25,245 nt of DNA from Thermoproteati archaeon (GTDB lineage Archaea > Thermoproteota > Thermoprotei_A > Marsarchaeales > UBA168): positions 1 through 25,245 of the forward strand of contig JAGDXH010000028.1 in NCBI GenBank assembly GCA_023256295.1, given 5' to 3'. The position numbers were made by a program, and so were the translations under genes. This document shows, in pieces, positions 4,382 through 17,737 of this stretch. The notes under the pieces were generated by a model. It had not been told where the DNA came from. It saw only the letters and a program-made list of their open reading frames with translations, and did not search any database. Position 1 is the stretch's first letter, and the number at the start of each line of letters is the position of its first letter.

Positions 4382-6667
4382 TTAAGCCTCGATGTAGTCG
4401 CTAGGCTTGGGCATTACCTGAGGAAGGCCCTTGCGCGCCCTGATCTTCATGATCAGGTCGGTGAGCAGGGACGGAGGTACTGGAGCCCAGTGGCTGAACT
4501 CGGCTCCCCAAAGCGCCTTACCCGCCGTGGCACTCCTGATCTCGTTGCTTAGGTCGAAGGACTCTGCAACAGGGATTTCGGCGATCATCTGCATGTTGTT
4601 TCCCGACGCAGACGGTATGACTTCCAGTACTCTGCCTCTCTTTTGGTTGATTATCCTGTTCAGAGGCGGCATATACTCAGTGCCCACCCTGATATCGACT
4701 TTTTGCCAAGGTTCTAGAAGAGTCGGATTTGCGCTGAGGAAAGATGCCATCATGGAGTTCTTTATGGCAGGCATCACTTGTGCTGGTCCTCTGTGCGCAG
4801 GGTCCTCGTGAATGAGCGCGTCCACGAGAACAGCTTTCACGCCCCTCATTGGTTCCTGCGCAAGAGGGCCTGCTTCAGTCGTCCATTGGAAGGCCTGTAT
4901 TATGGTCTCTTTGATTTCCCTGAGGTGCTGAAGACCCTTTGTCCTGTCGACAAATATGTTTAGGCGATCATCTATACCCCATATGTTTCTTGCCTCATCG
5001 GTATCCCACCCAGCTTCTTCACGAAGGATCTTCGCTCTTTCTCTGAAGTCTTGGTTGTCGTAAACCTTTCCCTCTTGAAGTAGCTGTAGGGTTTTCTCGT
5101 TGAGGGGTTCGACCATCACGTAGAACCTGTTGTGTTTGTTCGGGGACTTCCCCTCCGAGGGACCTCCCGAAGACTGAATCGACTCCCTGTACACCACCAA
5201 AGGCGGACTTGTCACCACGTCGAAGCCCTTTTGTTGGAGATCCCAGAGGGCGATTTCTAGGTGAAGCTGGCCCATTCCGCTGAGCAAGTACTCGCCCGTG
5301 TCCTCCTTCACTTTTACCTGAAGGTTTGGATCCTCTATGCTCATCTTGTGAAGGACGTCTATGAACTTGGGGAGGTCACCTGTGCTTTTGGGCTCTATTG
5401 CAACGGTCACGACAGGTTCGCTTATGTACGTAAGCTTTTCAAAGGCTCCTTCTCCTTGGTAGTTTGGATCTATGGCGGTCTCTCCGGCTCTTGCTTGTTC
5501 TAGGCCGAGCAAAGCGACCATGTTGCCTGCCGGTATTTTGTCGGCGACCTCTCTAGCTTGGCCCATGAAGAGGCCAACCTGGAGGACAGTGCCAACGGTT
5601 CCGGCGTTTACAAGGTAAAGTTGATCTCCAGTTTTTACGGTCCCAGAAAATACCCTTCCAGTTGCAACCAAGCCGGCGTGTGGATCAACCACCACGTTGT
5701 TGACTGCTATGACGATGGGACCATTTTCGTCGCACTCTAAAAGCGACTTCGTGAGAGCGGAGCCTTCCTTTCCTTGCCATATCTTGGGTATCCTGTACTT
5801 CTGCGCGTCCCTGGGCGAGGGAAGGTGGTCTACCGCCATGTTCAGTATGGCTTCGTAAAGTGGGACCTTTTTCACCAGATCGTCCGGGCTTCCCGTGGTG
5901 TATGCAGTTACCACATCAGAGAACTTCACCCCCCGCTCAACGGCCATTGGAAGAGTGAATCCCCACTTGTCCTTGGCAGCGCCAAAGGCCACCTCGCCCT
6001 CGTTGGCGTTGACCTTCCACGCCTCCTTGTACTCAGGCGGTGCATACTCGTCTATGAGCTTGTTGAAATCTTGTATTATGGAAAGTAGCCTGTTCTGGAC
6101 TTCTTGCGGCGACAGTCTCAGCTCTTTGACCAGCCTGTCTAGCTTGTTTATGTAAAGTACGGGTTTGACCTTCTCTTCGAGCGCCTGTCTGACAACTGTT
6201 TCGGTCTGGGTCATCACGCCCTCCACGCAGTCAACGACGACCACTGCTCCATCCATTACCCTGAGCGACCTCGTTACCTTGCCGGTGAAGTCGACGTGAC
6301 CAGGGGTATCTATCAGGTTTATCACATAGCTTTTCCCGTTTCTCTCGTGCAACAGGCTGACGTTAGCTGCCTTCACGGTCATTTGTCTCTTTTGCTCTAT
6401 CTCCAGATAGTCCATGGCAAGAGCGGTTCCGGCGACCTTGGGAGAGATGATCCCAGCAGCCATGAGTAAGCTATCACTCATGGTTGTCTTTCCGTGGTCA
6501 ACATGAGCAATCACGCCTATGTTCCTTATCTGATCCTTATTTTCCATCAGTTTTAAAATTTCCTCTGTTTGTCTATACTTGGGCAACTTACGCGAGGCTT
6601 TCCTCATTGCGTCTTTAAGCTTTTTGAAAATCGGCGAGTCGTTAGTCGTTTTAAGGAAAGTCTTCAT
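4382..6667 (-). CDS. fusA: Translation elongation factor aEF-2
   Basis: The 761-residue GTPase drives ribosomal translocation. G1 AHVDHGKT is at residues 54-61, with the DTPGH and NKLD motifs following. Near the C-terminus, LIHEDPAHRGPAQVMPA contains the conserved histidine that becomes diphthamide in archaea and eukaryotes. The protein is longer than most archaeal EF-2 (about 730-740) because of about 28 extra, lysine-rich N-terminal residues. An internal ATG at 6607 (residue 21) would bring it closer to family length, and a CTTAAAA box on the minus strand at about 6648-6657 would fit that start. The MFS permease follows 26 bases downstream. Identity is certain; the start is not. Confidence 0.96.
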   Translation of the reverse strand: MKTFLKTTNDSPIFKKLKDAMRKASRKLPKYRQTEEILKLMENKDQIRNIGVIAHVDHGKTTMSDSLLMAAGIISPKVAGTALAMDYLEIEQKRQMTVKAANVSLLHERNGKSYVINLIDTPGHVDFTGKVTRSLRVMDGAVVVVDCVEGVMTQTETVVRQALEEKVKPVLYINKLDRLVKELRLSPQEVQNRLLSIIQDFNKLIDEYAPPEYKEAWKVNANEGEVAFGAAKDKWGFTLPMAVERGVKFSDVVTAYTTGSPDDLVKKVPLYEAILNMAVDHLPSPRDAQKYRIPKIWQGKEGSALTKSLLECDENGPIVIAVNNVVVDPHAGLVATGRVFSGTVKTGDQLYLVNAGTVGTVLQVGLFMGQAREVADKIPAGNMVALLGLEQARAGETAIDPNYQGEGAFEKLTYISEPVVTVAIEPKSTGDLPKFIDVLHKMSIEDPNLQVKVKEDTGEYLLSGMGQLHLEIALWDLQQKGFDVVTSPPLVVYRESIQSSGGPSEGKSPNKHNRFYVMVEPLNEKTLQLLQEGKVYDNQDFRERAKILREEAGWDTDEARNIWGIDDRLNIFVDRTKGLQHLREIKETIIQAFQWTTEAGPLAQEPMRGVKAVLVDALIHEDPAHRGPAQVMPAIKNSMMASFLSANPTLLEPWQKVDIRVGTEYMPPLNRIINQKRGRVLEVIPSASGNNMQMIAEIPVAESFDLSNEIRSATAGKALWGAEFSHWAPVPPSLLTDLIMKIRARKGLPQVMPKPSDYIEA

Positions 6668-6778
6668 ACCTTGGTGCCTCTTACCCGCTGGAGACCCCCT
6701 GGGATACCATCACTGATTGGCTGAAGCCTTTGAAGGGAGTTGAGTTTCTTAGTTTGAACACCAGACGTTCACGCTGAG

Positions 6779-6989
6779 GGTAACCCAACGAGTTGGGCTG
6801 CCATGAGATTTTGTGATTAGCCAGCGAGAAGGCCTTCGCAGAGGGATCAGAAAACCTCTCAGCTGCGTCGTGCGAAGGACTTGGGCTTGCGATTAGACGC
6901 ATCGCGGGATGACCTGAAGAGAAGTTGAGGAAAATGAGCGGAGTTGCTGATCCCTGCTCATTCAAAAGCGGCCTACCGAAAAATGAGCA
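6779..6989. ncRNA. Candidate structured RNA segment (class unknown)
   Basis: Stems seen directly: 6784-6789 with 6792-6797 (CCCAAC/GTTGGG, extended outward to 6779/6802 with one mismatch and one wobble); 6833-6840 with 6871-6878 (CCTTCGCA/TGCGAAGG, 8 bp perfect) enclosing 6841-6844 with 6855-6858; 6889-6893 with 6901-6905 (GCGAT/ATCGC, 7-base loop); and 6933-6939 with 6956-6962. The hairpins do not decide the strand. The nested 8-bp stem with its inner hairpin resembles an RNA domain more than random sequence. It could instead be the remains of mobile-element ends, since IS605 elements carry subterminal hairpins. No known RNA family was recognised. Confidence 0.3.
6931..6989. repeat. Three-copy AATGAGC direct/inverted repeat with alternative pairings
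   Basis: AAAATGAGC occurs at 6931-6939 and again at 6980-6988, and its inverted form TGCTCATT lies between them at 6955-6962. The middle copy can pair with the upstream copy (6933-6939 with 6956-6962) or the downstream copy (6955-6962 with 6982-6989, 8 bp perfect), but not both. The two hairpins are therefore mutually exclusive. This could be a switch, a binding site for a dimeric protein, or a decayed repeat. Confidence 0.6.
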
Positions 6990-7022
6990 AGAAAGCTCCG
7001 GCCCTCAGGGAGAAGATGAATT

Positions 7023-7214
7023 GTGAAAGACTTTTGCGCTAGCTTCGGGTTCGCTCGTCGGGATAACCAACCGATGGTAGGGCGCGACATGCCCGAACTC
7101 ACGCCCGTGGAGATCAACGCCTCCGTAACCCGCTCTCCAGACGTGACTGAACGAAAGTTTCCGGCGTCGGGAAACTGCGCTTCGGGTAGTGTGGGGATCA
7201 AGCACGGTCGTTGA
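7023..7214 (+). pseudogene. Possible remnant of a tnpB 3' end
   Basis: The plus-strand frame from 7023 reads through a CASFGFARRDN-like stretch, then VGRDMPELTPVEINAS and later GNCASGS before TGA. In archaeal TnpB proteins the C-terminus runs from the second zinc knuckle (C-x-x-C-G-F...RD-x-N), through a short helix, to a G-x-x-x-P-E-[FL]-T-P-V-E motif and a final E-A-G-S-P-like motif. The match is by eye only. It implies loss of one knuckle cysteine, loss of about ten residues between RDN and VGR, and stop codons upstream at 7017. No TnpB body is readable upstream in any frame. A real tnpB tail at the start of this window shows that such elements occur nearby. The alternative is chance similarity within a structured RNA. 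Confidence 0.35.
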
Positions 7215-7313
7215 ACCAGGAACCTCACACCCCTCAGATGGGAGGATGTCAGTTTAGAAAGTGCCAGGTTCAAGGTCGTGCGGTCAACTCACTCGACGTG
7301 CAGACTTTTGTCT
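7156..7313 (+). other. Hairpin cluster overlapping and following the tnpB-like remnant
   Basis: Stems seen: 7156-7162 with 7170-7176 (AGTTTCC/GGAAACT, 7-base loop); 7189-7196 with 7223-7230 (GTGTGGGG/CCTCACAC, one G-T wobble); 7232-7235 with 7242-7245; and 7302-7305 with 7310-7313 (AGAC/GTCT with a TTTT loop). Structures spanning the last codons and 3' flank of tnpB are what an omega RNA and IS605 right end would produce, so this is where one would be expected if the remnant is real. Strand and function are inferred. Confidence 0.3.
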
Positions 7314-7350
7314 ATTGACTCAGTCCCTGTGAACCCCATGGGGCGGGCAA

Positions 7351-7360
7351 AGCTTTAATT
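7351..7360 (+). promoter_or_regulatory. TATA-like box upstream of the transglutaminase-like gene
   Basis: AGCTTTAATT is centred about 24 bases before the ATG at 7380. This spacing predicts transcription starting at or next to the start codon, hence a leaderless mRNA. It separates the structured spacer from the downstream gene. Confidence 0.6.
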
Positions 7361-7379
7361 CAGACTCAGGCTTAGCTGC

Positions 7380-8444
7380 ATGGAGCTACACGCCAGTTTG
7401 GGATTTTTCTTTTTGATACTGATCTTCTTTGTGGGTTTGGGGGCTGGTTTTGGCATAAACTTCATCGCTTATTACAGCCCGCTTCAGGCACGTTATCACA
7501 ACCTGAATCAGGCAAACTTGGCACTTTCGAACTACACGTCGCAGCTTTCGAAAGAGATCTCTACCCTTCAGACTCAGTCCTCCAGCCTCAACTCCTCTTA
7601 TCAGCAGCTTCAGGCGAGGTATGCATCGCTTCAATCCCAACTTGAGAGTCTGAGGTCTTTAGCATCCAAGGGAGCTGCGCAGGAGGGCGCTTTGGGGAGA
7701 TTTTACGAGTGGAGCGCGCTCGGGATCCCGCCTGTACTGCAAGCTTGGTATTCTCAAGCTCTCTCCCTTACGCCTGGGGGCGGCAAGACAGGGTTTACGC
7801 AGTCAGCGCTGTCAGACGCCGTGATACTTGCCGCTATCGATACGGGCCAGGATAGCTGGGCAGCAAGCAGATCAGCTTTCACGGGCCTGGGTACCTACAG
7901 CTCTGATTACAAGTTGTTCTCTAACATCTCAAGTTGGACCGAGCCAATAATCGTGGCCTTCTCTGAGAACGTCCTTCAGGTACCGGTCAACATGCGCTTT
8001 GGAAATAGCTCGGTCCCTCTTGGCGCTGTGCTCAACTACACGTCGACCCTAAGTTCAAGTTCGGCTGTCAACGGGAGCCTGCTTTCTCCTGTGGAGACCA
8101 TGGTGCGCGGAAGCGGGAATCAGCTAGACGTATGCGAAGTAGCAGCTTCGCTGCTTAGCTACAACGGATTTAACGTCTCGCTGGCACTGGTTAAAGTGAA
8201 TTCAAGCTCCACCAAAGCAGTTGCCATGGGTCAATCTCCACCAGTTGTGTACAGTTTTATGGTGCTTGTTCAACTTCCGAACCTTAAGGGCACCCGCTAT
8301 TACAGCAATCTCACCGCTTTTGGCATCCAAGGTGGAAACTGGGCTCTTATAGATCCTGGGTTGCCCCTTTCTCAGCAGAACACGGCTTCTTCGGCAACGC
8401 AGTACACTCTCTTGGGCGTCCAAGAGCTACCAAGGGTTGGCTAG
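7380..8444 (+). CDS. Membrane-anchored, sequon-rich protein with a degenerate transglutaminase-like core
   Basis: The 354-residue protein begins with one hydrophobic segment (about residues 7-31), then a Gln/Ser/Leu-rich coiled coil (about 33-95), so most of it probably lies outside the cell. Around residues 240-275 the pattern GNQLDVCEVAASLLSYNGF resembles the transglutaminase-like core (Cys followed by a helix and G-[FYI]-x-[AV]); a later NWALIDPG resembles the W-x-x-[LI]-D-P segment that carries the Asp. The strand where the catalytic His normally sits reads VYSFMVLVQ, with no His, so enzymatic activity is doubtful. About nine N-x-[ST] sequons are present, fitting N-glycosylation by an AglB such as the one at the window's end. 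Its function is unknown; a structural or peptide-binding role is possible. Confidence 0.7.
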   Translation: MELHASLGFFFLILIFFVGLGAGFGINFIAYYSPLQARYHNLNQANLALSNYTSQLSKEISTLQTQSSSLNSSYQQLQARYASLQSQLESLRSLASKGAAQEGALGRFYEWSALGIPPVLQAWYSQALSLTPGGGKTGFTQSALSDAVILAAIDTGQDSWAASRSAFTGLGTYSSDYKLFSNISSWTEPIIVAFSENVLQVPVNMRFGNSSVPLGAVLNYTSTLSSSSAVNGSLLSPVETMVRGSGNQLDVCEVAASLLSYNGFNVSLALVKVNSSSTKAVAMGQSPPVVYSFMVLVQLPNLKGTRYYSNLTAFGIQGGNWALIDPGLPLSQQNTASSATQYTLLGVQELPRVG

Positions 8445-17387: not shown

Positions 17388-17402
17388 AAGTTAGGAGCCT
17401 TT

Positions 17403-17414
17403 CTTTTTTTAAGC
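17403..17414 (-). promoter_or_regulatory. TATA-like box upstream of ppa
   Basis: On the minus strand this reads CTTAAAAAAAGA, centred about 22 bases before GTG 17387. It is the strongest AT-rich element in the short spacer and predicts a leaderless ppa mRNA. Confidence 0.55.
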
Positions 17415-17457
17415 ATATGTCGACCCGAGGAACGCCTGGTTCAAATTGAGCGCTAGG

Positions 17458-17463
17458 TTTATA
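17458..17463 (+). promoter_or_regulatory. TATA box of the Cren7-like gene
   Basis: TTTATA is a near-perfect archaeal TATA element. With transcription starting about 25 bases downstream (near 17485), the leader to ATG 17496 would be about 11 bases. The gene therefore has its own promoter. Confidence 0.6.
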
Positions 17464-17495
17464 CATGGGCTCCTCTACGTTACCTGCGGTCTAAA

Positions 17496-17669
17496 ATGGC
17501 CAAGTGCCCTTATGACGGTACGGAGGTTCCAAATCCAACGAAGACTTGGGTCATGATCGGGAAGCCGCTTGGGGGCAAAAGGGTGAAGCTCACAAATGGG
17601 ATCTTCCATTGCCCGACCTGCGGCAAGAACTTCAGAGCTGTGATCAAAAAGGAGATCCTCCCCGCTTAG
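17496..17669 (+). CDS. Small zinc-ribbon protein resembling chromatin protein Cren7
   Basis: The 57-residue protein is too short for many ORF callers. It has a cysteine at residue 4 (KCPYDG) and a CPTCGK knuckle at 39-44. Between and around them, the order K-T-W (16-18), GGKRVKL (26-32), a short G-I-F turn, and P-T-C-G-K-x-F-R (40-47) parallels the Cren7 pattern K-x-W ... G-x-K-G-V-K ... P-x-T-G-K-x-F-R. Cren7 is a DNA-bending SH3-like chromatin protein of Crenarchaeota; the cysteines here suggest a zinc-bound variant, with only three Cys, a His at 38 being a possible fourth ligand. DNA binding is inferred. It has its own TATA box, a terminator-like T-run after it, and small-basic composition. 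A generic zinc-ribbon protein is the alternative. Confidence 0.6.
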   Translation: MAKCPYDGTEVPNPTKTWVMIGKPLGGKRVKLTNGIFHCPTCGKNFRAVIKKEILPA

Positions 17670-17684
17670 GCCCGAGACTCAAAA

Positions 17685-17690
17685 TTTTTT
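17685..17690 (+). terminator. T-run terminator after the Cren7-like gene
   Basis: TTTTTT lies 16 bases after the stop codon and ahead of the next gene's promoter. Oligo-T runs on the non-template strand are the usual intrinsic termination signal in archaea. No hairpin is needed or seen. Confidence 0.5.
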
Positions 17691-17712
17691 ATCCATCGAA
17701 TTTTGATTAAGC

Positions 17713-17719
17713 TTAAAAA
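17713..17719 (+). promoter_or_regulatory. TATA-like box of the S-component-like gene
   Basis: TTAAAAA is centred about 23 bases before ATG 17738, again the spacing of a leaderless archaeal promoter. It makes this gene transcriptionally separate from the EcfA-EcfA-EcfT operon. Confidence 0.55.
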
Positions 17720-17737
17720 GCCAGCCTTTCAGCCCGC

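Follow-up and report, generated by a model that had tools for sequence, protein, structure and literature searches.

IS608 of Helicobacter pylori, a member of the IS200/IS605 family, inserts 3' of TTAC and has the left guide AAAG, the right guide GAAT, and the cleavage site TCAA (PMC5934647). Non-autonomous elements called PATEs are described in Haloquadratum walsbyi, where some lack the core and one form of 52 bp consists of the termini only (PMC3119063), and Halanaerobium hydrogeniformans has a PATE-like element made of a left hairpin, the last 58 nt of tnpB, and the whole right end (PMC7290912). ISDra2 gives rise to a reRNA (omegaRNA) of ~150 nt from the 3' end of tnpB together with the right end, with ~16 nt of flank as guide (PMC8612924), and archaea are reported to express TnpB omegaRNAs (PMC12558985). 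The subject is the spacer at positions 6668-7379, upstream of the EF-2 gene, in a 25,245-nucleotide contig of a Thermoproteati archaeon of the UBA168 lineage (JAGDXH010000028.1, the whole of which is referred to as the window). Positions 6977-7252 are identified as a PATE of the IS200/IS605 family, derived from a tnpB-carrying (IS1341-type) element by internal deletion, and a probability of about 0.93 is assigned to this reading. The original prediction, made from the sequence of the window, had favored either a large unclassified RNA or layered mobile-element debris.

The window is contig C54 of genome G000 (750 kb, 70 contigs, 69% complete). It was compared with three genomes of the same genus (G001-G003) and six further genomes of the order (G004-G009), and 41 genomes were searched overall; the genus genomes are 62-80% complete, and loci are given below as genome and contig. 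The identification is carried directly by the structure of the ends, homology to tnpB, occurrence at many unrelated sites, a target preference, covariation between guide and cleavage site, and absence from the corresponding spacers of three relatives. With the 712-bp spacer as query, 11 matches were found elsewhere in G000 (12 with the query itself), 14 in G002, 3 in G003, and none in G001, along with a few in G004, G005, and G007, so that 6 of the 41 genomes have a match. Apart from the window itself, every match is confined to positions 307-586 of the query. The boundary is sharp in the copy at G000:C16, which is identical to the window over the 43 bases up to TCAG and unlike it right after. 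Two parts of the repeat, segment A (58 bases, on the 5' side) and segment B (46 bases, on the 3' side), were also found apart from each other.

The nature of these two segments is given by the locus at G002:C20, where the same two ends as in the window copy enclose a larger, partial tnpB. Segment A there closely precedes a degraded start of tnpB type (MIKTLKLRLYPNKD, followed by a stop), while the tnpB C-terminus (...GKGIPEFTPAEI...LLKQEPYPSGMRGCQ), which contains a PF07282 zinc-ribbon domain, continues into segment B. From this arrangement A is the left end (LE) and B the right end (RE) of a tnpB-carrying element of IS200/IS605 type. At G002:C27 a similar tnpB-like start comes after the same LE, and at G000:C30 a degraded one does, both recognized by resemblance and not by HMM. 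Between the ends of the window copy only the decayed last ~58 codons of tnpB are left, with VGRDMPELTPVEI at 7077-7115 and LNQEPHTPQMGGCQ at 7211-7252 in another frame; TnpB segments of G002:C20 align collinearly with these two stretches, and this is their best match in the 25-kb window (E 0.036). The homology of the interior to tnpB and the internal deletion thus follow from a tail that is collinear with the PF07282-bearing TnpB C-terminus of G002:C20. At the DNA level the tail strongly matches (E 6e-33) the tail at G000:C67, where a PF01385 tnpB fragment lies upstream of it on the same strand. The RE hairpin is predicted to have 7 pairs, the two outermost of which, both C-G, are kept in 10 of 10 copies, and the consensus fold of the LE is weak (-1.63 kcal/mol). 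At G002:C26 (1380-1640), a tail 89% identical to that of the window over 136 bp is joined to an RE with GAAG/TTAC; the different RE and the different-looking LE around a shared tail suggest an exchange of interiors between element families.

Searches with models of the two ends, run with strict filters so that weak matches were lost, gave the distribution of the family. The LE model has 42 matches, spread over 7 of the order's 10 genomes (24 in G002, 4 each in G000, G003, and G007, 2 each in G004, G005, and G006, and none in G001, G008, or G009) and none in the 31 genomes outside the order. The RE model matches 15 times in G002, 9 in G000, 3 in G003, and once in G001, as well as in all six other genomes of the order and, with E values of 8e-4 to 0.01, in 8 of the 31 class-mates outside it. 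Within the genus the element is present in G000 and in two of the three other genomes, G001 having the one RE match alone. Pairing by eye gave 11 same-strand LE-RE pairs of 200-438 bp, the window included, in G000, G002, G003, and G007, and two pairs of ~820 bp, both in G002, one of them being the partial tnpB locus at G002:C20.

Shorter forms were also seen. At G000:C24 (1072-1125, minus strand), the start of an LE is fused to the finish of an RE in a 49-bp terminal-only form that follows TTAC, comparable to the 52-bp terminal-only PATE of Haloquadratum walsbyi (PMC3119063). The 54-bp right-end-only copies at G000:C68, C5, and C4 each start directly after TTAC, as does the right-end-only copy at G000:C21, which is cut by the contig end. 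Several copies lie at contig ends, as is expected where short-read assembly breaks at repeats.

Target preference is seen at the left ends. TTAC precedes the conserved GCAAGAA of the LE core by 8-11 bases in 14 of the 16 left ends, out of 42 LE matches, that were examined with their upstream sequence; the exceptions are CTAC in the window and TTGC at G003:C91. At the right ends, the fourth base of the guide and the fourth base of the cleavage site form a Watson-Crick pair in 20 of 23 cases from the window-type and sister families, and the pair is of two types. The C-G class has 13 members (12 GAAC/TCAG, including the window, and one CAAC/TCAG) and the G-C class seven (five GAAG/TCAC and two GAAG/TTAC), while GAAC/TTAC, GAAG/TCAA, and GAAT/CCAG do not pair. 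Not counted among the 23 are G000:C67 (a 2-base insertion makes the register unclear), G007:C10 (no right end seen), G002:C9 and G000:C21 (the contig ends inside the site), G002:C19 (read by eye as CAAG/TGAC, which would make a further fourth-position pair), G000:C16 (the 43-base copy identical to the window), G000:C24 (fused to the LE half), repeat entries for one and the same place, and weaker RE matches that were not inspected. This covariation is the signature expected of single-strand transposition. The original prediction had named compensatory changes in its listed stems as support for a functional RNA; covariation of this kind was found, but it links a cleavage site to its DNA guide and does not lie in those stems. 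The window family and IS608 share the TTAC target, the AAAG left guide, and the position of a guide 5' of each hairpin, and GAAT/TCAA of IS608 and GAAC/TCAG of the window differ at the fourth position of each only; IS608, however, has both tnpA and tnpB, while the window copy has neither and adjoins CTAC (PMC5934647).

Table 1. Features of the EF-2 spacer and its element, in window coordinates (LE, left end; RE, right end).
Feature	Position	Strand	Basis or remark
Probable EF-2 start codon, TTG	6584..6586	-	Earliest start possible in the frame of G001-G003 (alignment, translations)
EF-2 TATA-like box, CTTTAAGCTTTTTGA (+ strand)	6613..6627	-	15 bases identical in all four genus genomes
Left flank	6628..6976	.	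No relative found; longer by itself than all that lies between the promoters in relatives
CTAC immediately before the element, as target tetranucleotide (TTAC in the family consensus)	6973..6976	+	
Non-autonomous IS200/IS605-family element (PATE), 276 bp	6977..7252	+	Dispersed copies, end models, tnpB homology
LE	6977..7037	+	Same LE precedes a tnpB-like start in G002:C20 and G002:C27
Left guide AAAG, 5' base of short LE hairpin	6992..6995	+	Alignment; same tetranucleotide as IS608 GL (PMC5934647)
Decayed tnpB C-terminal tail, VGRDMPELTPVEI..., frame broken	7077..7219	+	Position equivalent to omegaRNA/reRNA scaffold
RE core: guide GAAC 7220-7223, hairpin, cleavage site TCAG 7249-7252	7220..7252	+	
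Right flank	7253..7345	.	No relative found; an omegaRNA, if made, would take its guide from 7253-7268 (PMC8612924)
TATA-like box of gene starting at 7380	7346..7360	+	Sequence; comparable box in relatives by eye

The remaining line of evidence is the locus itself. EF-2, whose closest named relatives are from TACK group archaeon KMA_Bin27 and archaeon UBA168 bins (91-92% identity; UBA168 is unclassified within Archaea at NCBI), and the gene at 7380 are divergent neighbors in G001, G002, and G003 as well. Alignment indicates that EF-2 probably starts at the TTG at 6586 and not at the ATG at 6667: in G001, G002, and G003 the equivalent TTG is the earliest possible start, since an in-frame stop bars anything upstream, and the identical TATA-like box inside the apparent gene means that the 27 codons from 6667 to 6586 probably belong to promoter and spacer and not to the gene. 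The 710-base spacer of the original prediction is therefore real but longer than thought, 793 bp from TTG 6586 compared with 214, 196, and 213 bp from start to start in G001-G003, an excess of ~580 bp. None of the three spacers of these same-genus genomes, which are other species and not strains, contains the element, so the EF-2 locus shows an insertion polymorphism, present in the window and absent from 3 of 3 same-genus spacers.

The protein encoded at 7380-8444 (354 aa) has a hydrophobic N-terminus by eye and sub-threshold, weak Pfam matches, many of which are to coiled-coil families. Relatives with 43-45% identity are present in all three same-genus genomes, but the six other genomes of the order have none.

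If the known behavior of IS608 applies, the history of the window copy may be outlined as follows. An internal deletion of a tnpB-carrying element left both ends with only the last, frame-broken stretch of tnpB between them. A Y1 transposase (TnpA) from another element, acting in trans, could then have recognized both hairpin ends, and by analogy with IS608 excision of the element from a single strand would have yielded a circle for insertion 3' of a TTAC. The insertion would have gone into the spacer between two divergent promoters and spared both boxes, the TATA-like box of EF-2 being ~350 bp away and that of the gene at 7380 ~95 bp, and the TTAC at its left edge would later have become CTAC. 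As the target tetranucleotide is required for excision of IS608 (PMC5934647), CTAC would hinder excision, and the copy is probably fixed. A possible source of transposase is indicated by PF01797 (TnpA) matches in all four genus genomes. In the wider order, G007:C23 (22000-24800) has a 138-aa tnpA frame next to a 483-aa tnpB frame, together with an RE of GAAC/TCAG, and is a candidate autonomous element of the order.

Several observations weigh against the PATE identification or against parts of this history. The window copy is preceded by CTAC, one base off TTAC. The protein-level match to TnpB, at E 0.036, is weak on its own, and in the alignment of LE copies the hairpin pairs show no compensatory change. 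While only 5 of 100,000 permutations of guides and cleavage sites paired as well as the observed set, this test ignores relatedness among the copies and uses 23 right ends that were assigned by eye before counting. The genus genomes, at their 62-80% completeness, yielded no undamaged tnpB between these ends, and the TnpA domain match of G000, whose link to the window family is putative, is partial, covering positions 5-85 of 121 with 32.6 bits. Finally, the pre-insertion (empty) site was not found in the spacers of the three relatives, which are too diverged for base-by-base alignment.

A large, stable, structured non-coding RNA of an unknown class filling the spacer would account for a region that is empty of genes and was described as rich in stems. 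The absence of genes is borne out: the spacer separates two divergent genes, and of its four open reading frames (ORFs) of at least 60 aa (94, 103, 66, and 63 aa) none has a Pfam match at E 0.1. It is not the only long gap, since a second poorly filled one lies at 17388-17737, where there is no more than the end of a 103-aa ORF. Known abundant RNAs are lacking, as stated, with no tRNA in 6668-7379 and no Rfam match at the gathering threshold; two weak Rfam matches, to Giardia U4 (E 0.6) and Chlorobi-1 (E 3.8), are at chance level. The individual stems also exist, including the nested 8-bp stem CCTTCGCA/TGCGAAGG at 6833-6840/6871-6878, while the single near-perfect 11-pair hairpin is replaced by four imperfect 11-pair inverted repeats (I1-I4). 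It is their abundance that is ordinary. The minimum free energy of the plus strand is -242.6 against a mean of -248.0 in 20 shuffles (z +0.81), and that of the minus strand -224.6 against -228.4 (z +0.60, 20 shuffles), so the spacer folds slightly less stably than shuffled sequence on both strands. In comparison with 60 shuffles, there are 11 perfect stems of at least 6 pairs with a loop of at most 60 (8.9 +/- 2.8 in shuffles), 6 of at least 7 pairs with a loop of at most 120 (3.8 +/- 2.2), and 3 of at least 8 pairs with a loop of at most 700 (3.8). The most favorable count, 3 stems of at least 8 pairs with a loop of at most 120 (0.9 +/- 0.9), is modestly above the shuffles and was reached by 5 of the 60. 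Stems of at least 7 pairs number 1-8 per 712-bp slice of the whole window (mean 4.1 in 35 consecutive slices, the spacer included), and the counts of the spacer, at or modestly above those of shuffles, fall within the range of these slices, so that stem richness is no signal here. Repeats I4 and I8 each have one arm in the mobile element and the other in the flank, and are therefore unlikely to be old structures. In addition, 276 bp of the supposed RNA are a dispersed repeat, nothing significantly related to 6632-6978 was found in the four genus genomes, covariation in the tail is weak, and the sequence is not at the locus in the three orthologous spacers. The Rfam search and the alignment with relatives through which the original prediction was to be checked, as run, thus speak against a large RNA, and a structure of this kind is very improbable.

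An RNA of a known kind is a different matter, and may be less improbable. The element could owe its retention to a solo omegaRNA, transcribed from the tnpB tail and RE and loaded into TnpB made elsewhere, whose cleavage of the empty site would restore or spread the element. By position, the kept interior of the window copy corresponds to the source of the ISDra2 reRNA (PMC8612924), and the 89%-identical tail has been kept beside a different RE in G002:C26. In the stem set from the tail alignment, 2 of 17 predicted pairs are changed on both sides; the covariation terms, however, are unfavorable (+1.21 for that set), and the fused copy at G000:C24 (49 bp) and the copies at C68, C5, and C4 (54 bp) have no tail at all. 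A partner is not apparent either, since no undamaged tnpB was found in the 69%-complete G000, which has only frames of 87-110 aa apart from a weak PF07282 match inside the window, and the window copy adjoins CTAC. Function as a solo omegaRNA is accordingly considered doubtful. Equally doubtful is the extension of this idea to the genus, in which the PATE family would be a set of solo omegaRNA genes, each cut down by deletion to an LE with an omegaRNA module, maintained and spread by the TnpB of other elements and with a flank guide protecting its own site.

A more plausible addition to the PATE, although still unlikely, is a second mobile element: 6628-6976 would be an older insertion that the PATE hit or adjoined. 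Subtracting 276 bp from 793 bp leaves 517 bp between the starts, still ~300 bp above the spacers of the relatives, and the PATE at G003:C92 adjoins heavily decayed tnpB-like sequence (by eye, from translations). Against this reading, a search of the four genus genomes with 6632-6978 returned nothing but the query itself at E <= 0.01 (the next best is 23 bases, E 0.019), no second LE or RE was found in the window at E <= 1, and the left flank has no match to plasmids. When both flanks were translated and compared with the collected loci, no match fell below E 0.18. A hidden protein in the 94-aa frame was considered and rejected, as its weak matches in 7 other genomes of the 41 reach at best E 0.0088, with 33% identity over 43 residues, and no match in viral contigs was confirmed. 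For the ~350-bp left flank and the ~95-bp right flank, an ordinary spacer without conservation, or debris of greater age, is the probable reading. Of the layered mobile-element debris in the original prediction, the mobile element is thus borne out at 6977-7252, where one element was found and no layering.

The PATE of the window is an ordinary mobile-element relic of a kind already described elsewhere in archaea and bacteria. It differs from the PATEs of Haloquadratum walsbyi in belonging to another archaeal lineage, in the TTAC target of its family, and in its tnpB 3' tail, and the two are likened by description and not by sequence (PMC3119063). The sequence of Halanaerobium hydrogeniformans is bacterial, with one such sequence there (PMC7290912), while the window genus has a dispersed family. 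The text of PMC12558985 does not contain the terms solo, non-autonomous, MITE, degenerate, "without TnpB", or "right end", and searches of the literature found nothing combining IS1341, non-autonomous, archaea, and IS605, and nothing on UBA168 archaea.

With this identification, a candidate large RNA is struck off the list and about half of the extra length of the spacer is explained. A further lesson is that such repeats, with several copies at contig ends, can be break points in the fragmented assemblies of these archaea. The family adds an IS608-like TTAC/AAAG element with a GAAC guide and a TCAG site to a little-studied archaeal order, and its natural covariation between GAAC/TCAG and GAAG/TCAC is a check, outside IS608, of the rule by which the guide pairs with the cleavage site.
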